From contig NW_003146267.1 of NCBI RefSeq assembly GCF_000003605.2, positions 16,860 through 80,859 on the forward strand: a stretch of 64,000 nucleotides of DNA. The letters are read 5' to 3'. Shown piece after piece: positions 1-64,000 of the stretch (positions within the stretch are counted from its first letter, which is position 1; the number at the start of each line of letters is the position of its first letter). Both the position numbers and the translations under genes were made by a program. The notes under the pieces were generated by a model, which saw only the letters and a program-made list of their open reading frames with translations, did not search any database and was not told where the DNA came from. The DNA comes from Saccoglossus kowalevskii. Lineage: Eukaryota; Hemichordata; Enteropneusta; Harrimaniidae.

Positions 1-172
1 TAGTTTGTGCTCGATATGACATTTAATTTTCTTCGTGTTTAGTCGTGGTTTCAACATTGACAGTAGTTTCGTTTAGTTTCCTTTACAAATACTGAACCGG
101 GATTACTCATTGTATTTCATGACATTTACGATAAACTGGACTATTCATACAAGTTGCGGATTGCAGAATGTC

Positions 173-244
173 AGCAGCGTTGCGCAGCGGAAGCGTGCTG
201 GGCCCATAACCCAGAGGTCCCTGGATCGAAACCAGCCGCTGCTA
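173..244 (+). tRNA. tRNA-iMet (CAT), unit 1
   Basis: Full length with two changes: G9T, and G65C, which leaves a C49/C65 mismatch at the foot of the T-stem. Probably weaker than the consensus gene. T5 terminator at 256-260. Confidence 0.8.
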
Positions 245-438
245 TGAAATTGAAGTTTTTAACCGTTAATTCTCAAACAACCTGTTGCTGCGAGTTATGT
301 GCCTTAAAAGTTTGCTTTATTCATCCGGAACATTAGTGATTCGCAATCTGCCAAGCGTAACAAATTATGAATGACGAGTAAGTAGGTTGGCAATAACAAT
401 AATTATTAACTGGCGCAAAATTTGAGTTGCAAGTAACT

Positions 439-565
439 GTCAGGATGGCCGAGCGGTCTAAGGCGCCAGACTCAAGGATTTGACACCTTTCCCTTATTTC
501 AGGGTTATTTATGGGAGATTTCTGGTCCACGAATGTGGGCGTGGGTTCGAATCCCACTTCTGACA
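439..565 (+). tRNA. tRNA-Leu (CAA), unit 1, intron 477-519
   Basis: Exons match consensus. In the intron CCTTG reads CCTTT, which removes one pair from the anticodon-intron helix; unit 11 shares this. T4 terminator at 572-575. Confidence 0.9.
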
Positions 566-775
566 ATATTATTTTACCTTTAGTAACTTAGCAAATTCTC
601 GCCTAGTTTGTGCTCGATATGACATTTAATTATCTTCGTGTTCAGTCGAGATTCAACATTGACAGTAGTTTCGTTTAGTTTCAATTTACAAATACTGAAC
701 CGAGATTACGCATTATATTTCATGACATTTACGATAAACTGGACTATTCATACAAGTTGCGTATTGCAGAATGTC

Positions 776-847
776 AGCAGCGTGGCGCAGCGGAAGCGTG
801 CTGGGCCCATAACCCAGAGGTCCCTGTATCGAAACCAGGCGCTGCTA
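776..847 (+). tRNA. tRNA-iMet (CAT), unit 2, G53T
   Basis: G53T breaks the G53-C61 pair and the B box. The downstream terminator reads TTCTT, so no T4 is present before the end of the next Leu gene. Confidence 0.75.
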
Positions 848-1041
848 TGAAATTGAAGTTCTTAACCGTTAATTCTCAAACAACCTGTTGCTGCGAGTTA
901 TGTGCCTTAAAAGTTTGCTTTATTCATTCGGAACATTCGTGATTCGCAATCTGCCAAGCGTAACAAATTATGAATGACGAGTAAGTAGGTTGGCAATAAC
1001 AATAATTATTAACTGGCGCAAAATTTGAGTTGCAAATAACT

Positions 1042-1168
1042 GTCAGGATGGCCGAGCGGTCTAAGGCGCCAGACTCAAGGATTTGACACCTTGCCCTTAT
1101 TTCAGGGTTATTTATGGGAGATTTCTGGTCCACGAATGTGGGCGTGGGTTCGAATCCCACTTCTGACA
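1042..1168 (+). tRNA. tRNA-Leu (CAA), unit 2, intron 1080-1122
   Basis: This gene decodes UUG. The acceptor stem GTCAGGA/TTCTGAC pairs fully with one G:T, discriminator base A73, anticodon CAA at 1076-1078, a class II variable arm with CCAC/GTGG stem and GAAT loop, T-stem GTGGG/CCCAC and T-loop TTCGAAT. The mature form is 84 nt, normal for eukaryotic tRNA-Leu, and no CCA is encoded. Exons and intron are consensus. If the iMet terminator of this unit fails, this gene would form the 3' half of a two-tRNA transcript. Confidence 0.95.
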
Positions 1169-1379
1169 ATGTTATTTTACCTTTAGTAACTTAGCAAATT
1201 CTCGCCTAGTTTGTGCTCGGATATGACATTTAATTATCTTAGTGTTTCGTCGTGATTCAACATTGACAGTAGTTTCGATTAGTTTCAATTTACAAATACT
1301 GAACCGAGATTACGCATTATATTTCATGACATTTATGATAAACTGGACTATTCATACAAGTTGCATACTGCAGAATGTC

Positions 1380-1451
1380 AGCAGCGTGGCTCAGCGGAAT
1401 CGTGCTGGGCCCATAACCCAGAGGTCCCTGAATCGAAACCAGGCGCTGCTA
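1380..1451 (+). tRNA. tRNA-iMet (CAT), unit 3, degenerate
   Basis: G12T and G22T both weaken the D-stem and G53A breaks the T-stem and B box. Likely inactive or poorly active. Confidence 0.6.
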
Positions 1452-1645
1452 TGAAATTCAAGTTTTTAACCGTTAATTCTCAAACAACCTGTTGCTGCGA
1501 GTTATGTGCTTTAACAGTTTGCTTTATTCATCTGAAACATTCGTGATTCGCAATCTGCCAAGCGTAACAAATTAAGAATGACGAGTAAGTAGGTTGGCAA
1601 TAACAATAATTATTAACTGGCGCAAAATTTGAGTTGTAAGTAACT

Positions 1646-1772
1646 GTCTGGATGGCCGAGCGGTATAAGGCGCCAGACTCAAGGACTTTTGACACCTTGC
1701 CTTATTTCAGGGTTATTTATGGGAGATTTCTGGTCCACGAATCTTGGCGTGGGTTCGAATCCCCTTATGACA
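1646..1772 (+). pseudogene. tRNA-Leu (CAA) pseudogene, unit 3
   Basis: The acceptor stem has A4T and a damaged 3' strand (CCCCTTATGACA for CCCACTTCTGACA, one base short), the variable arm is altered (CTTG for GTGG), and the 44-nt intron holds a T4 run at 1687-1690 that should stop pol III. Confidence 0.8.
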
Positions 1773-1982
1773 ATGTTATTTTACCTTTAGTAACTTAGTA
1801 AATTCTCGCCAAGTTTGTGCTCGATATGACATTTAATTTTCGTCGTGTTTAGTCGTGATTCAACATTGACAGTAGTTTCGTTTAGTTTCAATTTACAAAT
1901 ACTGAACCGAGATTACGCATTATATTTCATGACATTTACGATAAACTGGACTATTCATACAAGTTGCATATTGCAGAATGTC

Positions 1983-2054
1983 AGCAGCGTGGCGCAGCGG
2001 AATCGTGCTGGGCCCATAACCCAGAGGTCCCTGAATCGAAACCAGACCCTGCTA
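1983..2054 (+). pseudogene. tRNA-iMet (CAT), unit 4, degenerate
   Basis: Carries G22T, G53A, G65A and G67C, so the D-stem, T-stem (two pairs) and acceptor stem (C6/C67) are all hit. Units 5, 77 and 103 share this haplotype. Confidence 0.7.
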
Positions 2055-2248
2055 TGAAATTCAAGTTTTTAACCGTTAATTCTCAAACAACCTGTTGCTG
2101 CGAGTTATGTGCCTTAAAAGTTTGCTTTATTCATCCGAAACATTCGTGATTCGCAATCTGCCAAGCGCAACAAATTAAGAATGACGAGTAAGTAGGTTGG
2201 CAATAACAATAATTATTAACTGGCGCAAAATTTGAGTTGTAAGTCGCT

Positions 2249-2375
2249 GTCAGGATGGCCGAGCGGTCTAAGGCGCCAGATTCAAGGATTTGACACCTTG
2301 CCCTTATTTCAGGGTTATTTATGGGAGATTTCTGGTCCACGAATGTGGGCGTGGGTTCGAATCCCACTTCTGATA
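2249..2375 (+). tRNA. tRNA-Leu (CAA), unit 4
   Basis: C32T in the anticodon loop and C72T, which leaves a G1:T72 wobble at the end of the acceptor stem. Confidence 0.82.
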
Positions 2376-2585
2376 ATGTTATTTTACCTTTAGTAACTTA
2401 GCAAATTCTCGCCTAGTTTGTGCTCGATATGACAATTAATTTTCTTCGTGTTTAGTCGTGATTCAACATTGACAGTAGTTTCGGTTAGTTTCAATTTACA
2501 AATACTGAACCGAGATTACGCATTATATTTCATGACATTTACGATAAACTGGACTATTCATACAAGTTGCATATTGTAGAATGTC

Positions 2586-2657
2586 AGCAGCGTGGCGCAG
2601 CGGAATCGTGCTGGGCCCATAACCCAGAAGTCCCTGAATCGAAACCAGACCCTGCTA
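2586..2657 (+). pseudogene. tRNA-iMet (CAT), unit 5, degenerate
   Basis: Has the unit 4 changes plus G45A in the variable loop. Confidence 0.7.
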
Positions 2658-2851
2658 TGAAATTCAAGTTTTTAACCGTTAATTCTCAAACAACCTGTTG
2701 CTGCGAGTTATGTGCCTTAAAAGTTTGCTTTATTCATCCGAAACATTCGTGATTCGCAATCTGCCAAGCGCAACAACTTAAGAATGACGAGTAAGTAGGT
2801 TGGCAATAACAATAATTATTAACTGGCGCAAAATTTGAGTTGTAAGTCGCT

Positions 2852-2978
2852 GTCAGGATGGCTGAGCGGTCTAAGGCAACAGATTCAAGGATTTGACCCC
2901 TTGCCCTTATTTCAGGGTTATTTGTGGGAGATTTCTGGTCCACGAATGTGGGCGTGGGTTCGAATCCTACTTCTGACA
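2852..2978 (+). tRNA. tRNA-Leu (CAA), unit 5, degenerate
   Basis: C12T, GCAACAGA for GCGCCAGA (hits position 26 and breaks pair 27-43), C32T, and C63T. Intron has GACCCC and TTTGTGG. The same gene recurs in unit 95. Confidence 0.6.
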
Positions 2979-3177
2979 ATGTTATTTTACCTTTAGTAAC
3001 TTAGCAAATTCTCGCCTAGTTTGTGCTCGATATGACATTTAATTATCTTCGTGTTTAGTCGTGATTCAACATTGACAGTAGTTTCGTTTAGTTTCAATTT
3101 ACCGAGATTACGCATTATATTTCATGACATTTACGATAAACTGGACTATTCATACAAGTTGCATACAGCAGAATGTC

Positions 3178-3249
3178 AGCAGCGTGGCGCAGCGGAAGCG
3201 TGCTGGGCCCATAACCCAGAGGTCCCTGGATCGAAACCAGGCGCTGCTA
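3178..3249 (+). tRNA. tRNA-iMet (CAT), unit 6
   Basis: Consensus initiator tRNA, which brings the first methionine to the ribosomal P site with eIF2. Stems pair fully: acceptor AGCAGCG/CGCTGCT, D-stem GCGC/GCGT with one G:T, anticodon stem CTGGG/CCCAG with the three G:C pairs typical of initiators, T-stem CCTGG/CCAGG. The loop CCCATAA has C33 and anticodon CAT; the T-loop ATCGAAA has A54 and A60; A1:T72 and A73 complete the initiator hallmarks. Length is the usual 72 nt and no CCA is encoded. Upstream, 11 bp of spacer are missing in this unit (AAATACTGAAC lost after CAATTTAC), as in unit 96. Confidence 0.95.
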
Positions 3250-3443
3250 TGAAATTGAAGTTTTTAACCGTTAATTCTCAAACAACCTGTTGCTGCGAGT
3301 TATGTGCCTTAAAAGTTTGCTTTATTAATCCGGAACATTCGTGATTCGCAATCTGCCAAGCGTAACAAATTATGAATGACGAGTAAGTAGGTTGGCAATA
3401 ACAATAATTATTAACTGGCGCAAAATTTCAGATGCAAGTAACT

Positions 3444-3570
3444 GTCAGGATGGCCGAGCGGTCTAAGGCGCCAGACTTAAGGATTTGACACCTTGCCGTT
3501 ATTTCAGGGTTATTTATGGGAGATTTCTGGTCCACGAATGTGGGCGTGGGTTCGAATCCCACTTCTGACA
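3444..3570 (+). tRNA. tRNA-Leu with TAA anticodon, unit 6
   Basis: C34T turns CAA into TAA, so the product would read UUA and, by wobble, UUG. All stems are consensus. The intron reads CCTTGCCGTT, which keeps CCTTG but breaks the inner CCCT/AGGG hairpin. Units 92, 94 and 96 share it. Confidence 0.88.
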
Positions 3571-3780
3571 ATGTTATTTTACCTTTAGTAACTTAGCAAA
3601 TTCTCGCCTAGTTTGTGCTCGATATGACATTTAATTATCTTCGTGTTTAGTCGTGATTCAACATTGACAGTAGTTTCGTTTAGTTTCAATTTACAAATAC
3701 TGAACCGAGATTACGCATTATATTTCATGACATTTACGATAAACTGGACTATTCATACAAGTTGCATACTGCAGAATGTC

Positions 3781-3852
3781 AGCAGCGTGGCGCATCGGAA
3801 GCGTGCTGGGCCCATAACCCAGAGGTCCCTGGATCGAAACCAGGCGCTGCTA
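3781..3852 (+). tRNA. tRNA-iMet (CAT), unit 7
   Basis: G15T in the D-loop, which alters the A box and the 15-48 tertiary pair. Confidence 0.82.
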
Positions 3853-4046
3853 TGAAATTGAAGTTTTTAACCGTTAATTCTCAAACAACCTGTTGCTGCG
3901 AGTTATGTGCCTTAAAAGTTTGCTTTATTAATCCGGAACATTCGTGATTCGCAATCTGCCAAGCGTAACAAATTATGAATGACGAGTAAGTAGGTTGGCA
4001 ATAACAATAATTATTAACTGGCGCAAAATTTGAGTTGCAAGTAACT

Positions 4047-4173
4047 GTCAGGATGGCCGAGCGGTCTAAGGCGCCAGACTCAAGGATTTGACACCTTGCC
4101 CTTATTTCAGGGTTATTTATGGGAGATTTCTGGTCCACGAATGTGGGCGTGGGTTCGAATTCCACTTCTGACA
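4047..4173 (+). tRNA. tRNA-Leu (CAA), unit 7
   Basis: C61T leaves a G53:T61 wobble and changes the B box end. Confidence 0.82.
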
Positions 4174-4382
4174 ATGTTATTTTACCTTTAGTAACTTAGC
4201 AAATTCTCGCCTAGTTTGTGCTCGATATGACATTTAATTATCTTCGTGTTTAGTCGTGATTCAACATTGACAGTAGTTTCGTTTAGTTTCAATTTACAAA
4301 TACTGAACCGAGATTACGCATTATATTTCATGACATTTACGATAAACTGGACTATCATACAAGTTGCATACTGCAGAATGTC

Positions 4383-4454
4383 AGCAGCGTGGCGCAGCGG
4401 AAGCGTGCTGGGCCCATAACCCAGAGGTCCCTGGATCGAAACCAGGCGCTGCTA
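4383..4454 (+). tRNA. tRNA-iMet (CAT), unit 8
   Basis: Consensus gene; the flank lost one T (CTATCATAC), so the unit step is 602 bp. Confidence 0.94.
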
Positions 4455-4648
4455 TGAAATTGAAGTTTTTAACCGTTAATTTTCAAACAACCTGTTGCTG
4501 CGAGTTATGTGCCTTAAAAGTTTGCTTTATTCATCCGGAACATTCGTGATTCGCAAAATGCCAAGCGTAACAAATTATGAATGACGAGTAAGTAGGTTGG
4601 CAATAACAATAATTATTAACTGGCGCAAAATTTCAGTTGCAAGTAACT

Positions 4649-4775
4649 GTCAGCATGGCCGAGCGGTCTAAGGCGCCAGACTCAAGGATTTGACACCTTG
4701 CCCTTATTTCAGGGTTATTTATGGGAGATTTCTGGTCCACGAATGTGGGCGTGGGTTCGAATCCCACTTCTGACA
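4649..4775 (+). tRNA. tRNA-Leu (CAA), unit 8
   Basis: G6C leaves a C6/T67 mismatch in the acceptor stem. Confidence 0.8.
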
Positions 4776-4985
4776 ATGTTATTTTACCTTTAGTAACTTA
4801 GCAAATTCTCGCCTAGTTTGTGCTCGATATGACATTTAATTATCTTCGTGTTTAGTCGTGATTCAACATTGACAGTAGTTTCGTTTAGTTTCAATTTACA
4901 AACACTGAACCGAGATTACGCATTATATTTCATGACATTTACGATAAACTGGACTATTCATACAAGTTGCATACTGCAGAATGTC

Positions 4986-5057
4986 AGCAGCGTGGCGCAG
5001 CGGAAGCGTGCTGGGCCCATAACCCAGAGGTCCCTGGATCGAAACCAGGCGCTGCTA
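4986..5057 (+). tRNA. tRNA-iMet (CAT), unit 9
   Basis: Consensus. Confidence 0.95.
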
Positions 5058-5251
5058 TGAAATTGAAGTTTTTAACCGTTAATTTTCAAACAACCTGTTG
5101 CTGCGAGTTATGTGCCTTAAAAGTTTGCTTTATTCATCCGGAACATTCGTGATTCGCAATCTGCCAAGCGTAACAAATTATGAATGAAGAGTAAGTAGGT
5201 TGGCAATAACAATAATTATTAACTGGCGCAAAATTTGAGTTGCAAGTAACT

Positions 5252-5378
5252 GTCAGGATGGCCGAGCGGTCTCAGGCGCCAGACTCAAGGATTTGACACG
5301 TTGCCCTTAGTTCAGGGTTATTTTTGGGAGATTTCTGGTCCACGAATGTGGGCGTGGGTTCGAATCCCACTTCTGACA
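5252..5378 (+). tRNA. tRNA-Leu (CAA), unit 9, T5 in intron
   Basis: D-loop reads TCTCAGG. The intron has CGTTG for CCTTG, which damages the anticodon-intron helix, and a T5 run at 5321-5325 expected to stop pol III before exon 2. Unit 35 is the same allele. Confidence 0.65.
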
Positions 5379-5588
5379 ATGTTATTTTACCTTTAGTAAC
5401 TTAGCAAATTCTCGCCTAGTTTGTGCTCGATATGACATTTAATTATCTTCGTGTTTAGTCGTGATTCAACATTGACAGTAGTTTCGTTTAGTTTCAATTT
5501 ACAAATACTGAACCGAGATTACGCATTATATTTCATGACATTTACGATAAACTGGACTATTCATACAAGTTGCATACTGCAGAATGTC

Positions 5589-5660
5589 AGCAGCGTGGCG
5601 CAGCGGAAGCGTGCTGGGCCCATAACCCAGAGGTCCCTGGATCGAAACCAGGCGCTGCTA
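5589..5660 (+). tRNA. tRNA-iMet (CAT), unit 10
   Basis: Consensus. Confidence 0.95.
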
Positions 5661-5854
5661 TGAAATTGAAGTTTTTAACCGTTAATTCTCAAACAATCTG
5701 TTGCTGCGAGTTATGTGCCTTAAAAGTTTGCTTTATTCATCCGGAACATTCGTGATTCGCAATCTACCAAGCGTAACAAATTATGAATGACGAGTAAGTA
5801 GGTTGGCAATAACAATAATTATTAACTGGCGCAAAATTTGAGTTGCAAGTAACT

Positions 5855-5981
5855 GTCAGGATGGCCGAGCGGTCTAAGGCGCCAGACTCAAGGATTTGAC
5901 ACCTTGCTCTTATTTCAGGGTTATTTATGGGAGATTTCTGGTCCACGAATGTGGGCGTGGGTTCGAATCCCACTTCTGACA
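5855..5981 (+). tRNA. tRNA-Leu (CAA), unit 10
   Basis: Exons consensus; intron CCCT reads CTCT, weakening the inner hairpin. Confidence 0.92.
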
Positions 5982-6191
5982 ATGTTATTTTACCTTTAGT
6001 AACTTAGCAAATTCTCGCCTAGTTTGTGCTCGATATGACATTTAATTATCTTAGTGTTTAGTCGTGATTCAACATTGACAGTAGTTTCGTTTAGTTTCAA
6101 TTTACAAATACTGAACCGAGATTACGCATTATATTTCATGACATTTACGATAAACTGGACTATTCATACAAGTTGCATACTGCAGAATGTC

Positions 6192-6263
6192 AGCAGCGTG
6201 GCGCAGCGGAAGCGTGCTGGGCCCATAACCCAGAGGTCCCTGGATTGAAACCAGGCGCTGCTA
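6192..6263 (+). tRNA. tRNA-iMet (CAT), unit 11
   Basis: C56T removes the base that pairs with G19 and hits the B box. Confidence 0.78.
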
Positions 6264-6457
6264 TGAAATTGAAGTTTTTAACCGTTAATTCTCAAACAAC
6301 CTGTTGCTGCGAGTTATGTGCCTTAAAAGTTTGCTTTATTCATCCGGAACATTAGTGATTCGCAATCTGCCAAGCGTAACAAATTATGAATGACGAGTAA
6401 GTAGGTTGGCAATAACAATAATTATTAACTGGCGCAAAATTTGAGTTGCAAGTAACT

Positions 6458-6584
6458 GTCAGGATGGCCGAGCGGTCTAAGGCGCCAGACTCAAGGATTT
6501 GACACCTTTCCCTTATTTCAGGGTTATTTATGGGAGATTTCTGGTCCACGAATGTGGGCGTGGGTTCGAATCCCACTTCTGACA
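6458..6584 (+). tRNA. tRNA-Leu (CAA), unit 11
   Basis: Exons consensus; intron CCTTT as in unit 1. Confidence 0.9.
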
Positions 6585-6794
6585 ATGTTATTTTACCTTT
6601 AGTAACTTAGCAAATTCTCGCCTAGTTTGTGCTCGATATGACATTTAATTATCTTCGTGTTCAGTCGAGATTCAACATTGACAGTTGTTTCGTTTAGTTT
6701 CAATTTACAAATACTGAACCGAGATTACGCATTATATTTCATGACATTTACGATAAACTGGACTATTCATACAAGTTGCATATTGCGGAATGTC

Positions 6795-6866
6795 AGCAGC
6801 GTGGCGCAGCGGAAGCGTGCTGGGCCCATAACCCAGAGGTCCCTGGATCGAAACCAGGCGCTGCTA
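6795..6866 (+). tRNA. tRNA-iMet (CAT), unit 12
   Basis: Consensus. Confidence 0.95.
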
Positions 6867-7060
6867 TGAAATTGAAGTTTTTAACCGTTAATTCTCAAAC
6901 AACCTGTTGCTGCGAGTTATGTGCCTTAAAAGTTTGTTTTATTCATCCGGAACATTCGTGATTCGCAATCTGCCAAGCGTAACAAATTATGAATGACGAG
7001 TAAGTAGGTTGGCAATAACAATAATTATTAACTGGCGCAAAATTTGAGTTGCAAATAACT

Positions 7061-7187
7061 GTCAGGATGGCCGAGCGGTCTAAGGCGCCAGACTCAAGGA
7101 TTTGACACCTTGCCCTTATTTCAGGGTTATTTATGGGAGATTTCTGGTCCACGAATGTGGGCGTGGGTTCGAATCCCACTTCTGACA
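7061..7187 (+). tRNA. tRNA-Leu (CAA), unit 12
   Basis: Consensus exons and intron; 5' flank AAATAACT in place of AAGTAACT. Confidence 0.95.
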
Positions 7188-7398
7188 ATGTTATTTTACC
7201 TTTAGTAACTTAGCAAATTCTCGCCTAGTTTGTGCTCGGATATGACATTTAATTATCTTAGTGTTTAGTCGTGATTCAACATTGACAGTAGTTTCGTTTA
7301 GTTTCAATTTACAAATACTGAACCGAGATTACGCATTATATTTCATGACATTTACGATAAACTGGACTATTCATACAAGTTACATACTGCAGAATGTC

Positions 7399-7470
7399 AG
7401 CAGCGTGGCGCAGCGGAAGCGTGCTGGGCCCATAACCCAGAGGTCCCTGGATCGAAACCAGGCGCTGCTA
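7399..7470 (+). tRNA. tRNA-iMet (CAT), unit 13
   Basis: Consensus; flank has an extra G (GCTCGGATATG) and GTTACAT. Confidence 0.95.
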
Positions 7471-7664
7471 TGAAATTGAAGTTTTTAACCGTTAATTCTC
7501 AAACAACCTGTTGCTGCGAGTTATGTGCCTTAAAAGTTTGCTTTATTCATCCGGAACATCCGTGATTCGCAATCTGCCAAGCGTAACAAATTATGAATGA
7601 CGAGTAAGTAGGTTGGCAATAACAATAATTATTAACTGGCGCAAAATTTGAGTTGCAAGTAACT

Positions 7665-7777
7665 GTCAGGATGGCCGAGCGGTCTAAGGATTTGACACCT
7701 TGCCCTTATTTCAGGGTTATTTATGGGAGATTTCTGGTCCACGAATGTGGGCGTGGGTTCGAATCCCACTTCTGACA
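7665..7777 (+). pseudogene. tRNA-Leu pseudogene lacking anticodon, unit 13
   Basis: A 14-bp deletion joins TCTAAGG to ATTTGAC, removing the 5' anticodon stem, the anticodon and base 37. The ends of the lost piece share AAGG, which points to replication slippage or recombination at that short repeat. Confidence 0.92.
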
Positions 7778-7983
7778 ATGTTATTTTACCTTTAGTAACT
7801 TAGCAAATTCTCGCCTAGTTTGTGCTCGATATGACATTTAATTATCTTCGTGTTTAGTCGTGATCAACATTGACAGTAGTTTCGTTAGTTTCAATTTACA
7901 AATACTGAACCGAGATTACGCATTATATTCATGACATTACGATAAACTGGACTATTCATACAAGTTGCATATTGCAGAATGTC

Positions 7984-8055
7984 AGCAGCGTGGCGCAGCG
8001 GAAGCGTGCTGGGCCCATAACCCAGAGGTCCCTGGATCGAAACCAGGCGCTGCTA
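7984..8055 (+). tRNA. tRNA-iMet (CAT), unit 14
   Basis: Consensus gene with T4 terminator class. Its upstream spacer (7861-7945) has four single-base deletions. Confidence 0.93.
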
Positions 8056-8249
8056 TGAAATTGAAGTTTTAAACCGTTAATTCTCGAACAACCTGTTGCT
8101 CCGAGTTATGTGCCTTAAAAGTTTGCTTTATTAATCCGGAACATTCGTGATTCGCAATCTGCCAAGCGTAACAAATTATGAATGACGAGTAAGTAGGTTG
8201 GCAATAACAATAATTATTAACTGGCGCAAAATTTGAGTTGCAAGTAACT

Positions 8250-8376
8250 GTCAGGATGGCCGAGCGGTCTAAGGCGCCAGACTCAAGGATTTGACACCTT
8301 GCCCTTATTTCAGGGTTATTTATGGGAGATTTCTGGTCCACGAATGTGGGCGTGGGTTCGAATCCCACTTCTGACA
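8250..8376 (+). tRNA. tRNA-Leu (CAA), unit 14
   Basis: Consensus. Confidence 0.95.
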
Positions 8377-8587
8377 ATGTTATTTTACCTTTAGTAACTT
8401 AGCAAATTCTCGCCTAGTTTGTGCTCGGATATGACATTTAATTATCTTAGTGTTTAGTCGTGATTCAACATTGACAGTAGTTTCGTTTAGTTTCAATTTA
8501 CAAATACTGAACCGAGATTACGCATTATATTTCATGACATTTACGATAAACTGGACTATTCATACAAGTTACATACTGCAGAATGTC

Positions 8588-8659
8588 AGCAGCGTGGCGC
8601 AGCGGAAGCGTGCTGGGCCCATAACCCAGAGGTCCCTGGATCGAAACCAGGCGCTGCTA
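8588..8659 (+). tRNA. tRNA-iMet (CAT), unit 15
   Basis: Consensus. Confidence 0.95.
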
Positions 8660-8853
8660 TGAAATTGAAGTTTTTAACCGTTAATTCTCAAACAACCTGT
8701 TGCTGCGAGTTATGTGCCTTAAAAGTTTGTTTTATTCATCCGGAACATTCGTGATTCGCAATCTGCCAAGCGTAACAAATTATGAATGACGAGTAAGTAG
8801 GTTGGCAATAACAATAATTATTAACTGGCGCAAAATTTGAGTTGCAAATAACT

Positions 8854-8980
8854 GTCAGGATGGCCGAGCGGTCTAAGGCGCCAGACTCAAGGATTTGACA
8901 CCTTGCCCTTATTTCAGGGTTATTTATGGGAGATTTCTGGTCCACGAATGTGGGCGTGGGTTCGAATCCCACTTCTGACA
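8854..8980 (+). tRNA. tRNA-Leu (CAA), unit 15
   Basis: Consensus. Confidence 0.95.
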
Positions 8981-9191
8981 ATGTTATTTTACCTTTAGTA
9001 ACTTAGCAAATTCTCGCCTAGTTTGTGCTCGGATATGACATTTAATTATCTTAGTGTTTAGTCGTGATTCAACATTGACAGTAGTTTCGTTTAGTTTCAA
9101 TTTACAAATACTGAACCGAGATTACGCATTATATTTCATGACATTTACGATAAACTGGACTATTCATACAAGTTACATACTGCAGAATGTC

Positions 9192-9263
9192 AGCAGCGTG
9201 GCGCAGCGGAAGCGTGCTGGGCCCATAACCCAGAGGTCCCTGGATCGAAACCAGGCGCTGCTA
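9192..9263 (+). tRNA. tRNA-iMet (CAT), unit 16
   Basis: Consensus. Confidence 0.95.
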
Positions 9264-9457
9264 TGAAATTGAAGTTTTTAACCGTTAATTCTCAAACAAC
9301 CTGTTGCTGCGAGTTATGTGCCTTAAAAGTTTGCTTTATTCATCCGGAACATCCGTGATTCGCAATCTGCCAAGCGTAACAAATTATGAATGACGAGTAA
9401 GTAGGTTGGCAATAACAATAATTATTAACTGGCGCAAAATTTGAGTTGCAAGTAACT

Positions 9458-9584
9458 GTCAGGATGGCCGAGCGGTCTAAGGCGCCAGACTCAAGGATTT
9501 GACACCTTGCCCTTATTTCAGGGTTATTTATGGGAGATTTCTGGTCCACGAATGTGGGCGTGGGTTCGAATCCCACTTCTGACA
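9458..9584 (+). tRNA. tRNA-Leu (CAA), unit 16
   Basis: Consensus. Confidence 0.95.
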
Positions 9585-9794
9585 ATGTTATTTTACCTTT
9601 AGTAACTTAGCAAATTCTCGCCTAGTTTGTGCTCGATATGACATTTAATTATCTTCGTGTTTAGTCGTGATTCAACATTGACAGTAGTTTCGTTTAGTTT
9701 CAATTTACAAATACTGAACCGAGATTACGCATTATATTTCATGACATTTACGATAAACTGGACTATTCATACAAGTTGCATATTGCAGAATGTC

Positions 9795-9866
9795 AGCAGC
9801 GTGGCGCAGCGGAAGCGTGCTGGGCCCAAAACCCAGAGGTCCCTGGGTCGAAACCAGGCGCCGCTA
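9795..9866 (+). tRNA. Initiator-body tRNA with CAA anticodon, unit 17
   Basis: T36A gives loop CCCAAAA, so the anticodon is CAA (reads UUG). Also A54G in the T-loop and T69C, which leaves A4/C69 in the acceptor stem. T4 terminator class. The body is otherwise that of an initiator. Confidence 0.75.
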
Positions 9867-10060
9867 TGAAATTGAAGTTTTAAACCGTTAATTCTCGAAC
9901 AACCTGTTGCTCCGAGTTATGTGCCTTAAAAGTTTGCTTTATTAATCCGGAGCATTCGTGATTCGCAATCTGCCAAGCGTAACAAATTATGAATGACGAG
10001 TAAGTAGGTTGGCAATAACAATAATTATTAACTGGCGCAAAATTTGAGTTGCAAGTAACT

Positions 10061-46275: not shown

Positions 46276-46485
46276 ATGTTATTTTACCTTTAGTAACTTA
46301 GCAAATTCTCGCCTAGTTTGTGCTCGATATGACATTTAATTATCTTCGTGTTTAGTCGTGATTCAACATTGACAGTAGTTTCGTTTAGTTTCAATTTACA
46401 AATACTGAACCGAGATTACGCATTATATTTCATGACATTTACGATAAACTGGACTATTCATACAAGTTGCATACTGCAGAATGTC

Positions 46486-46537
46486 AGCAGCGTGGCGCAG
46501 CGGAAGCGTGCTGGGCCCATAACCCAGAGGTCCCTGA
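46486..46537 (+). pseudogene. 3'-truncated tRNA-iMet, unit 78
   Basis: A 104-bp deletion runs from position 53 of the gene into the spacer (join CCCTGAAACATTAG). T-arm, acceptor 3' strand, B box and terminator are lost. Unit 107 has the same join. Confidence 0.92.
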
Positions 46538-46647
46538 AACATTAGTGATTCGCAATCTGCCAAGCATAACAAATTATGAATGACTAGTAAGTAGGTTGGC
46601 AATAACAATAATTATTAACTGGCGCAAAATTTGAGTTGCATGTAACT

Positions 46648-46774
46648 GTCAGGATGGCCGAGCGGTCTAAGGCGCCAGACTCAAGGATTTGACACCTTGC
46701 CCTTATTTCAGGGTTATTTATGGGATATTTCTGGTCCACGAATGTGGGCGTGGGTTCGAATCCCACTTCTGACA
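46648..46774 (+). tRNA. tRNA-Leu (CAA), unit 78
   Basis: Exons consensus; intron end GGGATAT. Confidence 0.93.
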
Positions 46775-46984
46775 ATGTTATTTTACCTTTAGTAACTTAG
46801 CAAATTCTCGCCTAGTTTGTGCTCGATATGACATTTAATTATCTTCGTGTTCAGTCGAGATTCAACATTGACAGTAGTTTCGTTTAGTTTCAATTTACAA
46901 ATACTGAACCGAGATTACGCATTATATTTCATGACATTTACGATAAACTGGACTATTCATACAAGTTGCATATTGCAGAATGTC

Positions 46985-56613: not shown

Positions 56614-56685
56614 AGCAGCGTGGCGCAGCGGAAGCGTGCTGGGCCCATAACCCAGAGGTCCCTGGATCGAAACCAGGCGCTGCTA
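56614..56685 (+). tRNA. tRNA-iMet (CAT), unit 95
   Basis: Consensus. Confidence 0.95.
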
Positions 56686-56879
56686 TGAAATTGAAGTTTT
56701 TAACCGTTAATTTTCAAACAACCTGTTGCTGCGAGTTATGTGCCTTAAAAGTTTGCTTTATTCATCCGAAACATTCGTGATTCGCAATCTGCCAAGCGCA
56801 ACAACTTAAGAATGACGAGTAAGTAGGTTGGCAATAACAATAATTATTAACTGGCGCAAAATTTGAGTTGTAAGTCGCT

Positions 56880-57006
56880 GTCAGGATGGCTGAGCGGTCT
56901 AAGGCAACAGATTCAAGGATTTGACCCCTTGCCCTTATTTCAGGGTTATTTGTGGGAGATTTCTGGTCCACGAATGTGGGCGTGGGTTCGAATCCTACTT
57001 CTGACA
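56880..57006 (+). tRNA. tRNA-Leu (CAA), unit 95, degenerate
   Basis: Same allele as unit 5 (C12T, GCAACAGA, C32T, C63T, intron GACCCC). Confidence 0.6.
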
Positions 57007-57205
57007 ATGTTATTTTACCTTTAGTAACTTAGCAAATTCTCGCCTAGTTTGTGCTCGATATGACATTTAATTATCTTCGTGTTTAGTCGTGATTCAACAT
57101 TGACAGTAGTTTCGTTTAGTTTCAATTTACCGAGATTACGCATTATATTTCATGACATTTACGATAAACTGGACTATTCATACAAGTTGCATACAGCAGA
57201 ATGTC

Positions 57206-57277
57206 AGCAGCGTGGCGCAGCCGAAGCGTGCTGGGCCCATAACCCAGAGGTCCCTGGATCGAAACCAGGCGCTGCTA
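57206..57277 (+). tRNA. tRNA-iMet (CAT), unit 96
   Basis: G18C in the D-loop. The spacer has the 11-bp deletion of unit 6. Confidence 0.8.
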
Positions 57278-57471
57278 TGAAATTGAAGTTTTTAACCGTT
57301 AATTCTCAAACAACCTGTTGCTGCGAGTTATGTGCCTTAAAAGTTTGCTTTATTAATCCGGAACATTCGTGATTCGCAATCTGCCAAGCGTAACAAATTA
57401 TGAATGACGAGTAAGTAGGTTGGCAATAACAATAATTATTAACTGGCGCAAAATTTCAGATGCAAGTAACT

Positions 57472-57599
57472 GTCAGGATGGCCGAGCGGTCTAAGGCGCC
57501 AGACTTAAGGATTTGACACCTTGCCGTTATTTCAGGGTTATTTATGGGAGATTTTCTGGTCCACGAATGTGGGCGTGGGTTCGAATCCCACTTCTGACA
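57472..57599 (+). tRNA. tRNA-Leu with TAA anticodon, unit 96, T4 inside
   Basis: Unit 6 allele plus one extra T at the intron/exon 2 border, giving T4 at 57552-57555 and 128 bp. Pol III should stop there. Confidence 0.68.
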
Positions 57600-57809
57600 A
57601 TGTTATTTTACCTTTAGTAACTTAGCAAATTCTCGCCTAGTTTGTGCTCGATATGACATTTAATTATCTTCGTGTTTAGTCGTGATTCAACATTGACAGT
57701 AGTTTCGTTTAGTTTCAATTTACAAATACTGAACCGAGATTACGCATTATATTTCATGACATTTACGATAAACTGGACTATTCATACAAGTTGCATACTG
57801 CAGAATGTC

Positions 57810-57881
57810 AGCAGCGTGGCGCAGCGGAAGCGTGCTGGGCCCATAACCCAGAGGTCCCTGTATCGAAACCAGGCGCTGCTA
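57810..57881 (+). tRNA. tRNA-iMet (CAT), unit 97, G53T
   Basis: Only G53T differs from consensus. Confidence 0.8.
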
Positions 57882-58075
57882 TGAAATTGAAGTTTTTAAC
57901 CGTTAATTCTCAAACAACCTGTTGCTGCGAGTTATGTGCCTTAAAAGTTTGCTTTATTCATCCGGAACATCCGTGATTCGCAAAATGCCAAGCGTAACAA
58001 ATTATAAATGACGAGTAAGTAGGTTGGCAATAACAATAATTATTAACTGGCGCAAAATTTGAGATGCAAGTAACT

Positions 58076-58202
58076 GTCAGGATGGCCGAGCGGTCTAAGG
58101 CGCCAGACTCAAGGATTTGACACCTTGCCCTTATTTCAGGATTATTTATGGGAGATTTCTGGTCCACGAATGTGGGCGTGGGTTCGAATCCCACTTCTGA
58201 CA
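58076..58202 (+). tRNA. tRNA-Leu (CAA), unit 97
   Basis: Exons consensus; intron CAGGATTATT and flank GAGATGC as in unit 86. Confidence 0.93.
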
Positions 58203-58412
58203 ATGTTATTTTACCTTTAGTAACTTAGCAAATTCTCGCCTAGTTTGTGCTCGATATGACATTTAATTATCTTCGTGTTTAGTCGTGATTCAACATTGAC
58301 AGTAGTTTCGTTTAGTTTCAATTTACAAATACTGAACCGAGATTACGCATTATATTTCATGACATTTACGATAAACTGGACTATTCATACAAGTTGCATA
58401 TTGCAGAATGTC

Positions 58413-58484
58413 AGCAGCGTGGCGCAGCGGAAGCGTGCTGGGCCCATAACCCAGAGGTCCCTGGATCGAAACCAGGCGCTGCTA
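58413..58484 (+). tRNA. tRNA-iMet (CAT), unit 98
   Basis: Consensus; T4 class. Confidence 0.95.
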
Positions 58485-58678
58485 TGAAATTGAAGTTTTA
58501 AACCGTTAATTCTCGAACAACCTGTTGCTCCGAGTTATGTGCCTTAAAATTTTGCTTTATTAATCCGGAACATTCGTGATTCGCAATCTGCCAAGCGTAA
58601 CAAATTATGAATGACGAGTAAGTAGGTTGGCAATAACAATAATTATTAACTGGCGCAAAATTTGAGTTGCAAGTAACT

Positions 58679-58805
58679 GTCAGGATGGCCGAGCGGTCTA
58701 AGGCGCCAGACTCAAGGATTTGACACCTTGCCCTTATTTCAGGGTTATTTATGGGAGATTTCTGGTCCACGAATGTGGGCGTGGGTTCGAATCCCACTTC
58801 TGACA
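58679..58805 (+). tRNA. tRNA-Leu (CAA), unit 98
   Basis: Consensus. Confidence 0.95.
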
Positions 58806-59015
58806 ATGTTATTTTACCTTTAGTAACTTAGCAAATTCTCGCCTAGTTTGTGCTCGATATGACATTTAATTATCTTCGTGTTTAGTCGTGATTCAACATT
58901 GACAGTAGTTTCGTTTAGTTTCAATTTACAAATACTGAACCGAGATTACGCATTATATTTCATGACATTTACGATAAACTGGACTATTCATACAAGTTGC
59001 ATACTGCAGAATGTC

Positions 59016-59087
59016 AGCAGCGTGGCGCAGCGGAAGCGTGCTTGGCCCATAACCCAGAGGTCCCTGGATCGAAACCAGGCGCTGCTA
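59016..59087 (+). tRNA. tRNA-iMet (CAT), unit 99
   Basis: G29T breaks one of the three G:C pairs that direct initiator tRNA to the P site. Confidence 0.78.
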
Positions 59088-59281
59088 TGAAATTGAAGTT
59101 TTAAACCGTTAATTCTCGAACAACCTGTTGCTCCGAGTTATGTGCCTTAAAAGTTTGCTTTATTAATCCGGAACATTCGTGATTCGCAATCTGCCAAGCG
59201 TAACAAATTATGAATGACGAGTAAGTAGGTTGGCAATAACAATAATTATTAACTGGCGCAAAATTTGAGTTGCAAGTAACT

Positions 59282-59408
59282 GTCAGGATGGCCGAGCGGT
59301 CTAAGGCGTCAGACTCAAGGATTTGACACCTTGCCCTTATTTCAGGGTTATTTATGGGAGATTTCTGGTCCACGAATGTGGGCGTGGGTTCGAATCCCAC
59401 TTCTGACA
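59282..59408 (+). tRNA. tRNA-Leu (CAA), unit 99
   Basis: C27T leaves a T27:G43 wobble. Confidence 0.88.
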
Positions 59409-59618
59409 ATGTTATTTTACCTTTAGTAACTTAGCAAATTCTCGCCTAGTTTGTGCTCGATATGACATTTAATTATCTTCGTGTTTAGTCGTGATTCAAC
59501 ATTGACAGTAGTTTCGTTTAGTTTCAATTTACAAATACTGAACCGACATTACGCATTATATTTCATGACATTTACGATAAACTGGACTATTCGTACAAGT
59601 TGCATACAGCAGAATTTC

Positions 59619-59690
59619 AGCAGCGTGGCGCAGCGGAAGCGTGCTGGGCCCATAACCCAGAGATCCCTGGATCGAAACCAGGCGCTGCTA
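59619..59690 (+). tRNA. tRNA-iMet (CAT), unit 100
   Basis: G46A in the variable loop. Confidence 0.86.
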
Positions 59691-59884
59691 TGAAATTGAA
59701 GTTTTTAACTGTTAATTCTCAAACAACCTGTTGCTGCGTGTTATGTGCCTTAAAAGTTTGCTTTATTAATCCGGGAACATTCGTGATTCGCAATCTGCAA
59801 GCGTAACAAATTATGAATGACGAGTAAGTATGTTGGCAATAACAATAATTATTAACTGGCGCAAAATTTGAGTTGCAAGTAACT

Positions 59885-60011
59885 GTCAGGATGGCCGAGC
59901 GGTCTAAGGCGCCAGACTCAAGGATTTGACACCTTGCCCTTATTTCAGGGTTATTTATGGGAGATTTCTGGTCCACGAATGTGGGCGTGGGTTCGAATCC
60001 CACTTCTGACA
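59885..60011 (+). tRNA. tRNA-Leu (CAA), unit 100
   Basis: Consensus. Confidence 0.95.
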
Positions 60012-60221
60012 ATGTTATTTTACCTTTAGTAACTTAGCAAATTCTCACCTAGTTTGTGCTCGATATGACATTTAATTATCTTCGTGTTTAGTCGTGATTC
60101 AACATTGACAGTAGTTTCGTTTAGTTTCAATTTACAAATACTGAACCAAGATTACGCATTATATTTCATGACATTTACGATAAACTGGACTATTCATACA
60201 AGTTGCATATTGCAGAATGTC

Positions 60222-60293
60222 AGCAGCGTGGCGCAGCGGAAGCGTGCTGGGCCTATAACCCAGAGGTCCCTGGATCGAAACCAGGCGCTGCTA
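60222..60293 (+). tRNA. Initiator-body tRNA with TAT anticodon, unit 101
   Basis: C34T is the only change: loop CCTATAA, anticodon TAT (would read AUA, Ile). T4 class. Confidence 0.8.
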
Positions 60294-60487
60294 TGAAATT
60301 GAAGTTTTAAACCGTTAATTCTCGAACAACCTGTTGCTCCGAGTTATGTGCCTTAAAAGTTTGCTTTATTAATCCGGAACATTCGTGATTCGCAATCTGC
60401 CAAGCGTAACAAATTATGAATGACGAGTAAGTAGGTTGGCAATAACAATAATTATTAACTGGCGCAAAATTTGAGTTGCAAGTAACT

Positions 60488-60614
60488 GTCAGGATGGCCG
60501 AGCGGTCTAAGGCGCCAGACTCAAGGATTTGACACCTTGCCCTTATTTCAGGGTTATTTATGGGAGATTTCTGGTCCACGAATGTGGGCGTGGGTTCGAA
60601 TCCCACTTCTGACA
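60488..60614 (+). tRNA. tRNA-Leu (CAA), unit 101
   Basis: Consensus. Confidence 0.95.
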
Positions 60615-60824
60615 ATGTTATTTTACCTTTAGTAACTTAGCAAATTCTCGCCTAGTTTGTGCTCGATATGACATTTAATTATCTTCGTGTTTAGTCGTGA
60701 TTCAACATTGACAGTAGTTTCGTTTAGTTTCAATTTACAAATACTGAACCGACATTACGCATTATATTTCATGACATTTACGATAAACTGGACTATTCAT
60801 ACAAGTTGCATATTGCAGAATGTC

Positions 60825-60896
60825 AGCAGCGTGGCGCAGCGGAAGCGTGCTGGGCCCATAACCCAGAGGTCCACGGATCGAAACCAGGCGCTGCTA
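60825..60896 (+). tRNA. tRNA-iMet (CAT), unit 102
   Basis: C50A and T51C break two T-stem pairs. Confidence 0.68.
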
Positions 60897-61089
60897 TGAA
60901 ATTGAAGTTTTTAACTGTTAATTCTCAAACAACCTGTTGCTGCGTGTTATGTGCCTTAAAAGTTTGCTTTATTAATCCGGAACATTCGTGATTCGCAATC
61001 TGCAAGCGTAACAAATTATGAATGACGAGTAAGTATGTTGGCAATAACAATAATTATTAACTGGCGCAAAATTTGAGTTGCAAGTAACT

Positions 61090-61216
61090 GTCAGGATGGC
61101 CGAGCGGTCTAAGGCGCCAGACTCAAGGATTTGACACCTTGCCCTTATTTCAGGGTTATTTATGGGAGATTTCTGGTCCACGAATGTGGGCGTGGGTTCG
61201 AATCCCACTTCTGACA
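61090..61216 (+). tRNA. tRNA-Leu (CAA), unit 102
   Basis: Consensus. Confidence 0.95.
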
Positions 61217-61425
61217 ATGTTATTTTACCTTTAGTAACTTAGCAAATTCTCACCTAGTTTGTGCTCGATATGACATTTAATTATCTTCGTGTTTAGTCGT
61301 GATTCAACATTGACAGTAGTTTCGTTTAGTTTCAATTTACAAATACTGAACCGAGATTACGCATTATATTTCATGACATTTACGATAAACTGGACTATCA
61401 TACAAGTTGCATATTGCAGAATATC

Positions 61426-61497
61426 AGCAGCGTGGCGCAGCGGAATCGTGCTGGGCCCATAACCCAGAGGTCCCTGAATCGAAACCAGACCCTGCTA
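61426..61497 (+). pseudogene. tRNA-iMet (CAT), unit 103, degenerate
   Basis: Unit 4 haplotype (G22T, G53A, G65A, G67C). Confidence 0.7.
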
Positions 61498-61691
61498 TGA
61501 AATTCAAGTTTTTAACCGTTAATTCTCAAACAACCTGTTGCTGCGAGTTATGTGCCTTAAAAGTTTGCTTTATTCATCCGAAACATTCGTGATTCGCAAT
61601 CTGCCAAGCGCAACAAATTAAGAATGACGAGTAAGTAGGTTGGCAATAACAATAATTATTAACTGGCGCAAAATTTGAGTTGTAAGTCGCT

Positions 61692-61818
61692 GTCAGGATG
61701 GCCGAGCGGTCTAAGGCGCCAGATTCAAGGATTTGACACCTTGCCCTTATTTCAGGGTTATTTGTGGGAGATTTCTGGTCCACGAATGTGGGCGTGGGTT
61801 TGAATCCCACTTCTGACA
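61692..61818 (+). tRNA. tRNA-Leu (CAA), unit 103
   Basis: C32T and C56T; intron TTTGTGG. Confidence 0.78.
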
Positions 61819-62028
61819 ATGTTATTTTACCTTTAGTAACTTAGCAAATTCTCGCCTAGTTTGTGCTCGATATGACATTTAATTATCTTCGTGTTTAGTC
61901 GTGATTCAACATTGACAGTAGTTTCGTTTAGTTTCAATTTACAAATACTGAACCGAGATTACGCATTATATTTCATGACATTTACGATAAACTGGACTAT
62001 TCATACAAGTTGCATACTGCAGAATGTC

Positions 62029-62100
62029 AGCAGCGTGGCGCAGCGGAAGCGTGCTGGGCCCATAACCCAGAGGTCTTTGAATCGAAACCAGGCGCTGCTA
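62029..62100 (+). tRNA. tRNA-iMet (CAT), unit 104, G53A
   Basis: C49T, C50T and G53A: two wobbles and one broken pair in the T-stem. Confidence 0.68.
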
Positions 62101-62294
62101 TGAAATTGAAGTTTTTAACCGTTAATTCTCAAACAACCTGTTGCTGCGAGTTATGTGCCTTAAAAGTTTGCTTTATTCATCCGGAACATCCGTGATTCGC
62201 AATCTGCCAAGCGTAACAAATTATAAATGACGAGTAAGTAGGTTGGCAATAACAATAATTATTAACTGGCGCAAAATTTGAGTTGCAAGTAACT

Positions 62295-62421
62295 GTCAGG
62301 ATGGCCGAGCGGTCTAAGGCGCCAGACTCAAGGATTTGACACCTTGCCCTTATTTCAGGGTTATTTATGGGAGATTTCTGGTCCACGAATGTGGGCGTGG
62401 GTTCGAATCCCACTTCTGACA
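62295..62421 (+). tRNA. tRNA-Leu (CAA), unit 104
   Basis: Consensus. Confidence 0.95.
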
Positions 62422-62631
62422 ATGTTATTTTACCTTTAGTAACTTAGCAAATTCTCGCCTAGTTTGTGCTCGATATGACATTTAATTATCTTCGTGTTTA
62501 GTCGTGATTCAACATTGACAGTAGTTTCGTTTAGTTTCAATTTACAAATACTGAACCGAGATTACGCATTATATTTCATGACATTTACGATAAACTGGAC
62601 TATTCATACAAGTTGCATACTGCAGAATGTC

Positions 62632-62703
62632 AGCAGCGTGGCGCAGCGGAAGCGTGCTGGGCCCATAACCCAGAGGTCCCTGAATCGAAACCAGGCGCTG
62701 GTA
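62632..62703 (+). tRNA. tRNA-iMet (CAT), unit 105, G53A
   Basis: G53A, and C71G leaves G2/G71 in the acceptor stem. Confidence 0.68.
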
Positions 62704-62897
62704 TGAAATTGAAGTTTTTAACCGTTAATTCTCAAACAACCTGTTGCTGCGAGTTATGTGCCTTAAAAGTTTGCTTTATTCATCCGGAACATCCGTGATT
62801 CGCAATCTGCCAAGCGTAACAAATTATAAATGACGAGTAAGTAGGTTGGCAATAACAATAATTATTAACTGGCGCAAAATTTGAGTTGCAAGTAACT

Positions 62898-63024
62898 GTC
62901 AGGATGGCCGAGCGGTCTAAGGCGCCAGACTCAAGGATTTGACACCTTGCCCTTAGTTCATGGTTATTTATGGGAGATTTCTGGTCCATGAATGTGGGCG
63001 TGGGTTCGAATCCCACTTCAGACA
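62898..63024 (+). tRNA. tRNA-Leu (CAA), unit 105
   Basis: T69A leaves A4/A69; variable arm CCAT; intron TTAGTTCATGG. Confidence 0.72.
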
Positions 63025-63234
63025 ATGTTATTTTACCTTTAGTAACTTAGCAAATTCTCGCCTAGTTTGTGCTCGATATGACATTTAATTATCTTCGTGT
63101 TCAGTCGTGATTCAACATTGACAGTAGTTTCGTTTAGTTTCAATTTACAAATACTGAACCGAGATTACGCATTATATTTCATGACATTTACGATAAACTG
63201 GACTATTCATACTAGTTGCATATTGCAGAATGTC

Positions 63235-63306
63235 AGCAGCGTGGCGCAGCGGAAGCGTGCTGGGCCCATAACCCAGAGGTCCCTGGATCGAAACCAGGCG
63301 CTGCTA
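63235..63306 (+). tRNA. tRNA-iMet (CAT), unit 106
   Basis: Consensus; T4 class. Confidence 0.95.
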
Positions 63307-63500
63307 CGAAATTGAAGTTTTAAACCGTTAATTCTCGAACAACCTGTTGCTCCGAGTTATGTGCCTTAAAAGTTTGCTTTATTAATCCGGAACATTCGTG
63401 ATTCGCAATCTGCCAAGCGTAACAAATTATGAATGACGAGTAAGTAGGTTGGCAATAACAATAATTATTAACTGGCGCAAAATTTGAGTTGCAAGTAACT

Positions 63501-63627
63501 GTCAGGATGGCCGAGCGGTCTAAGGCGCCAGACTCAAGGATTTGACACCTTGCCCTTATTTCAGGGTTATTTATGGGAGATTTCTGGTCCGCGAATGTGG
63601 GCGTGGGTTCGAATCCCACTTCTGACA
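63501..63627 (+). tRNA. tRNA-Leu (CAA), unit 106
   Basis: Variable-arm CCGC for CCAC (wobble with GTGG). Confidence 0.92.
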
Positions 63628-63837
63628 ATGTTATTTTACCTTTAGTAACTTAGCAAATTCTCGCCTAGTTTGTGCTCGATATGACATTTAATTATCTTCG
63701 TGTTTAGTCGTGATTCAACATTGACAGTAGTTTCGTTTAGTTTCAATTTACAAATACTGAACCGAGATTACGCATTATATTTCATGACATTTACGATAAA
63801 CTGGACTATTCATACAAGTTGCATATTGCAGAATGTC

Positions 63838-63889
63838 AGCAGCGTGGCGCAGCGGAATCGTGCTGGGCCCATAACCCAGAGGTCCCTGA
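63838..63889 (+). pseudogene. 3'-truncated tRNA-iMet, unit 107
   Basis: Same 104-bp deletion join as unit 78, with G22T in addition. Confidence 0.92.
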
Positions 63890-63997
63890 AACATTAGTGA
63901 TTCGCAATCTGCCAAGCATAACAAATTATGAATGACTAGTAAGTAGTTGGCAATAACAATAATTATTAACTGGCGCAAATTTGAGTTGCATGTTACT

Positions 63998-64000
63998 GTC
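63998..64000 (+). tRNA. tRNA-Leu, unit 107, cut by window edge
   Basis: Only GTC, the first three bases, is inside the window; placed from its spacing to the invariant upstream block. Confidence 0.6.

Follow-up and report, generated by a model that had tools for sequence, protein, structure and literature searches.

Tandem initiator tRNA-Met and tRNA-Leu(CAA) genes with many decayed copies in the acorn worm Saccoglossus kowalevskii

The 64,000-nucleotide stretch of Saccoglossus kowalevskii DNA analysed here (the window; bases 16860–80859 of contig NW_003146267.1, or C3681, which is 80,859 bp long) consists of a tandem array of transfer RNA genes (tDNAs), each unit of which carries an initiator tRNA-Met (iMet) gene and a tRNA-Leu(CAA) gene. 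Alignment with a single unit resolved the window into 106 full units, each about 603 bp long, and a 335-bp partial unit, arranged head to tail with complete tRNA genes, and every aligned copy lay on the + strand. The period was 603 bp, and 71 of the 107 pieces had exactly this length. A preliminary description of this DNA had proposed an unbroken two-gene array of at least 64 kb, with one iMet and one Leu(CAA) gene per unit of about 603 bp; the array was borne out, as was the composition of its unit in the consensus, although some copies have decayed. The array and the features of one representative unit are as follows:

1..64000, + strand: tandem tDNA array made up of 106 complete units, about 603 bp each, and a partial one, running on to both ends of C3681
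5417..6019, + strand: representative unit (unit 10), three substitutions away from the consensus
5589..5660, + strand: initiator tRNA-Met (CAT) gene, 72 nt, in the representative unit (ARAGORN and Rfam, 56.9 bits)
5672..5676, + strand: run of five T residues after iMet, presumed RNA polymerase III (pol III) terminator (position from the consensus)
5855..5981, + strand: tRNA-Leu(CAA) gene, 127 nt, in the representative unit (Rfam, 47.1 bits)
5893..5935, + strand: 43-nt intron of the Leu(CAA) gene, after anticodon-loop position 37 (boundaries inferred from the anticodon stem)
5988..5991, + strand: run of four T residues after Leu, presumed pol III terminator (position from the consensus)

In the 603-bp consensus unit, the iMet gene occupies positions 173–244, with a CAT anticodon, an A1:U72 pair and the T loop ATCGAAA. 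The hallmarks of eukaryotic initiator tRNAs are A1:U72, a GGG/CCC anticodon stem, a CAU anticodon and residues A54 and A60 in the T loop, and the consensus iMet has all of them. Likewise, the Leu gene (positions 439–565, with its 43-nt intron) has all the hallmarks of eukaryotic tRNA-Leu(CAA), namely a CAA anticodon, a long variable arm and an intron after position 37. Both consensus genes display full cloverleaf pairing and T-run terminators: the T4 run after Leu was present in all 106 window units, and a run of at least four T residues after iMet was kept in 101. Transcription of array copies by pol III is predicted from the A and B boxes and these terminators. The window gave 201 matches to Rfam RF00005 over the gathering score, and 93 tRNAs were identified by ARAGORN, the intron-bearing Leu gene never being among them. 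No Rfam family other than tRNA was found among the 150 of these 201 matches listed. Scanned against Rfam under permissive settings, about two units yielded three tRNA matches and no non-tRNA family at the gathering score, the sub-threshold matches being one to a tmRNA model over a Leu gene and two to a plastid model. No open reading frame starting with ATG and at least 100 amino acids long was found in the window, and the DNA patterns searched for had no match in either the GTDB or the IMG/VR collection.

The array is larger than the window and fills the whole of C3681, given that the 16,859 bp to the left of the window are also array and that both contig ends fall inside a unit. Units 1–5, which are more divergent, were considered as a possible array edge, but this was rejected because the array continues leftward. 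In a search of the genome (572 Mb, 4,830 contigs), a 30-bp unit marker (unit positions 387–416) occurred 230 times: 136 times in C3681, 93 times in a second contig, C341, and once in a third, C183. C341 (61,167 bp) was examined over its first 30 kb and in eleven pieces, some of which overlap; it has the array at its start and at its end and the marker throughout, and it resembles C3681. C183 holds an array end: about 2.2 decayed units, with 89–93% identity to the consensus, are followed from position 2469 by another satellite (2470–5827; period 890 according to TRF, with self-alignment placing the copies about 935 bp apart), which joins the tDNA array directly at unit position 341. At position 6992 of C3681, a unit without the entire Leu gene adjoins a short TAACTTAG repeat.

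Many copies of both genes have decayed. Among the 106 window units, 42 iMet genes and 54 mature Leu sequences were identical to the consensus, as were both genes in 23 units. At least one stem pair was broken in 37 iMet and 22 Leu copies, and a broken pair or an indel was present in 39 and 24, respectively. The earlier count of over 200 pol III loci is matched by the 201 Rfam hits but includes these decayed copies. Neither defect was found in 67 iMet and 82 Leu genes, and both genes were sound in 53 units. In 24 iMet copies, a G-to-T (16 copies) or G-to-A (8 copies) change disrupts the last T-stem pair and the B box; no compensatory double changes were seen in the tRNA stems of window copies. 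Copies that were paired and ungapped were also counted along C3681 as a whole (iMet in 80 and Leu in 98 of 134 units; both, with CAT, in 60) and in C341 (iMet in 30 and Leu in 31 of 49 units; both, with CAT, in 19). Four Leu copies in the window had a TAA anticodon, and the anticodon of iMet bodies was changed in six of the 106 window units, seven of the 134 units of C3681 and two of the 49 units of C341 (both CGT), making nine of 183 for the two contigs. The window copies concerned are:

9795..9866, + strand: iMet body with anticodon CAA
11604 (CGT), 26597 and 44677 (AAT), 60222 (TAT) and about 45883 (TAC, unit 77): iMet bodies with other anticodons

Methylation-driven decay was considered and rejected, as the observed/expected CpG ratio of the unit was 1.08 and the excess of variable CpG sites over other G/C sites was only slight (33 of 56 versus 92 of 177).

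Conservation is no greater in the tRNA bodies than in the spacers, and no purifying selection is visible on single copies. The p-values given here are approximate, because substitutions were scored against the majority consensus and variants that are linked do not count as independent. Variable sites in the window numbered 70 of 156 in tRNA and 164 of 404 in spacer (p=0.39), with no difference when non-CpG G/C sites and A/T sites were considered separately (p=0.88 for each). In the larger sets, tRNA sites were more often variable than spacer sites, in the 134 units of C3681, which include those of the window (89/156 versus 179/404, p=0.008), in the 49 units of C341 (68/156 versus 122/404, p=0.004) and in the pooled set of 183 units (112/156 versus 212/404, p=4×10−5). 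By base class, the pooled counts were 77/96 tRNA versus 89/137 spacer at G/C sites (p=0.013) and 35/60 versus 123/267 at A/T sites (p=0.09). The excess in tRNA was also found for variants private to C341 (41 versus 47, p=5×10−5; G/C p=0.0008, A/T p=0.14) and, more weakly, for those private to C3681 (63 versus 121, p=0.02; G/C p=0.50, A/T p=0.11). Removal of the 15 most divergent window units left 58 of 156 tRNA sites and 119 of 404 spacer sites variable (p=0.085). The tRNA bodies may therefore mutate faster than the spacers, partly because of base composition; faster change in tRNA bodies would also be expected from transcription-linked mutation.

Several observations weigh against a reading in which the copies are redundant working genes, with selection on each too weak to see. 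Common variants (at least five copies in the window) were somewhat rarer in tRNA (6/87 versus 27/199 in spacer, p=0.11), and the Leu loops were poor in variants (8 alleles at 32 loop sites versus 36 at 52 stem sites), with no such loop deficit in iMet (21 alleles at 30 loop sites versus 22 at 42 stem sites). The intact T4 run after Leu in every window unit also counts here. Together, the rarity of common variants and the few changes in Leu loops are hints of weak selection. Base composition accounts for some of the raised variability of the tRNA bodies, as no difference was found within G/C or A/T sites of the window, nor within either class for C3681-private variants. The lack of visible constraint could also mean that most copies are dead and not redundant putative working genes.

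Local constraint within the unit was considered separately. The 30-bp block used as unit marker, which is TATA-like and lies directly upstream of Leu, was identical in all 136 C3681 copies, and in a permutation test on 134 units of this contig, an equally invariant window arose in 0 of 5000 permutations, although the test assumes independent sites, an assumption violated by linked variants. This block was nevertheless rejected as a constrained promoter element: C341 had 93 exact copies and nine intervals in which a unit lacked an exact copy, the changes including several independent ones, and the block ranked 193rd of 603 windows in the 49 units of that contig. It is thus invariant in one contig and varying in the other. 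Candidate hot zones before iMet (−22 to −1) and Leu (−21 to −1) and a cold zone before iMet (−45 to −23) were also rejected, with no significant departure in C341-private variants. Among 13 regions, without correction, these variants were fewer than expected at unit positions 1–127 (7 versus 19.4, p=0.001) and more numerous than expected in Leu exon 1 (17 versus 7.4, p=0.002); we draw nothing from either figure.

The units are homogenised along their whole length, spacers together with genes, as in concerted evolution. The mean pairwise distance between whole window units was 2.4%, and similarity was nearly uniform at all distances along the window. Neighbours were marginally closer (2.26% at lag 1, z=−4.4), the closest relatives often lay tens of units apart, and higher-order repeats of fixed period were looked for in the window and rejected. 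The consensus of C3681 differed from that of the 49 C341 units at one of 603 sites. The same deletion recurs in the following window pieces:

46314..46812, + strand: 499-bp variant unit, in which a 104-bp deletion takes the 3' end of iMet and spacer, with a junction sequence identical to that in the partial unit at 63666
63666..64000, + strand: partial unit with the 104-bp deletion; C3681 ends here, inside the array

Three more 499-bp units of this kind were found in the left part of C3681 and two in the first 30 kb of C341. The similarity of the units and the recurrent deletion fit long-distance exchange, by gene conversion or unequal crossing over.

Besides the array there are other sources of iMet, and iMet has two or more different partners in the arrays of this genome. 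A 28-base iMet core had 172 exact matches in the genome, with 99 in C3681, 59 in C341 and 14 elsewhere (one in C285, two in C848, three in C2143, one in C3574 and seven at reverse-strand places). Among the 40 of 263 candidates scored, the 72-nt iMet consensus was found letter for letter twice in C2143 and once in C848, with different flanks, and it is because of this identity in unrelated surroundings that we take the consensus to be the worm's own conserved iMet sequence. Positions 2200–6500 of C2143 form a second tandem tDNA repeat, with a unit of about 1.9 kb containing iMet and tRNA-Asn(GTT) genes and with one further, slightly diverged iMet copy; a Ser(ACT) gene on the other strand was called there by ARAGORN alone, without Rfam support. 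As iMet also occurs in the iMet-Asn repeat and in other places, its pairing with Leu is not exclusive. For Leu(CAA), all 40 candidates scored, of 292, fell in C3681 or C341.

We consider it probable that this is a real tandem tDNA array that grew from a 603-bp founder segment, with redundant, decaying copies and an accidental pairing of the two genes. A segment carrying iMet and the intron-bearing Leu(CAA) gene, with their own A and B boxes and T-run terminators, would have undergone head-to-tail multiplication, with unequal exchange and gene conversion as the probable means. Because the copies would be redundant, selection on each would be too weak to see, and broken copies would therefore accumulate, which homogenisation would spread or remove. 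That iMet is paired with Leu(CAA) would most likely be an accident of the founder segment, and not a matched dosage system. Equal dosage of the start tRNA and the UUG decoder had been proposed in the preliminary description, and this part of it was not supported: the numbers of sound genes are unequal, the bodies are no more conserved than the spacers, iMet copies with changed anticodons are present and iMet is paired with Asn(GTT) elsewhere. The broader proposal, that the array persists to meet a demand for very many iMet and Leu(CAA) tRNAs at once in a stage such as oogenesis or early cleavage, as suggested for developmentally regulated tDNA repeats, is in keeping with the many copies of complete genes; we nevertheless regard it as unlikely, given the persistence of anticodon-changed copies, the different iMet partner elsewhere and the absence of visible purifying selection keeping single copies intact, against which the hints from loops and common variants point only weakly. 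A mixed, error-bearing tRNA pool, in which iMet bodies with TAT, CAA, CGT, AAT and TAC anticodons would be transcribed and allow non-AUG starts, and transcription would raise mutation in tRNA bodies above that in spacers, is a very doubtful proposition.

An account in which the array is now mostly a satellite derived from tRNA genes, kept by recombination or drive and largely silenced, with the tRNAs supplied by other copies, would suit the minority of C3681 units in which both genes are sound with CAT (60 of 134), the direct junction of the array end with another satellite in C183 and the 14 exact iMet cores outside the two array contigs. We judge it unlikely, because most iMet and Leu genes of C3681 are still paired and ungapped, the Leu terminator is present in every window unit and no methylation-driven loss of CpG was seen. 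Duplication of a few units by the assembler is barely credible. The assembly did break here, as both C3681 and C341 start and end inside the array, and these two contigs could be two haplotypes of one locus. However, the longest exact repeat within C3681 was 902 bp, and only three pairs among the 106 window units showed no substitution difference; the array therefore does not consist of a few units copied repeatedly. The longest exact repeat shared by C3681 and the first 30 kb of C341 was 678 bp, and the array end lies on a separate contig, C183. The concern that the array might be an assembly artefact of few units is thus addressed in part.

Two other contigs were also noted. C3680 (positions 1–10000) contains a long repeat in which all three forward frames are open, with a motif like GCHFTFTQ. 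The mitochondrial genome is contig C4830 (17,037 bp), in which COX1 lies on the opposite strand, ND2 precedes ND1, ND5 adjoins CYTB and tRNA-Lys has the anticodon TTT; an ND5 motif has AAA at a place expected to encode lysine, and AGG was absent from the eight genes counted. The best PDB matches of its COX1 protein were mitochondrial COX1 chains, with 1occ, which we take to be bovine, among the top ones. For the mitochondrial DNA of S. kowalevskii, the parts of the published account consulted describe a COX1 inversion, transposition of ND1 or ND2, AAA as a lysine codon, no AGG and a UUU anticodon (PMC3121625), and a partially consulted comparison of two hemichordates gives adjacent nd5 and cob (PMC2697986). 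C4830 agrees with these marks, which points to Saccoglossus or a near relative.

Tandem tDNA arrays are already known, and the one described here shares their layout. A literature search on hemichordate and tRNA-array terms, with subscription papers mostly outside it, gave no title on a hemichordate tandem tDNA array among the 10 of 21 papers listed, and no counterpart was met in the literature compared for the host group, for the iMet-Leu pair with this unit length or for measured decay. The array extends long tandem tDNA arrays to hemichordates; its 183 aligned copies (134 and 49) allow the redundancy, mutation and homogenisation of tRNA genes to be measured, and the iMet-Asn repeat in the same genome allows a test of whether tDNA arrays serve tRNA supply or act as satellites. 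The vertebrate Xenopus laevis has a tandem tDNA repeat with a 3.18-kb unit of about eight tRNA genes, including Met and Leu, a unit larger and with more genes than the two-gene unit of 603 bp found here; no paper matching the 3.18-kb length was found in the literature search.

For Hydractinia, the passages compared describe arrays of nearly identical copies, evenly spaced, numbering in the tens or hundreds and with spacers that are alike, those of tRNAs included; for Nematostella they describe tRNA tandem arrays (PMC11067881). According to the part consulted of another report, Nematostella has more than 17,000 tDNAs, 89% of which are clustered, mostly as heterogeneous pairs, in clusters of fifty and more (PMC2888827). 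The acorn-worm array shares this layout, but these hosts belong to another phylum, and the passages compared contain no iMet and Leu(CAA) unit and do not describe copy decay relative to spacers. In Entamoeba, tandem units of several tRNA genes have been described, with concerted evolution proposed; in E. histolytica, almost all the tRNA genes are in arrays, with short repeats between the genes and, in the passages compared, no clear pseudogene copies, whereas many copies are broken here (PMC2652664). The Ser-Tyr-Tyr cluster of Arabidopsis consists of two-isotype tandem tDNA repeats with pseudogenes and variable regions, as far as the excerpt compared goes (PMC12308677); it is a plant cluster with demonstrated cell-specific expression. 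Finally, the excerpted account of human 1q23.3 describes a tRNA variable-number tandem repeat with a GC-rich, CTCF-binding unit of 7.3 kb and 9–43 copies per allele (PMC4041453), which is likewise a large tandem repeat with tRNA genes, built of units of 7.3 kb rather than the 603 bp of the acorn-worm array.

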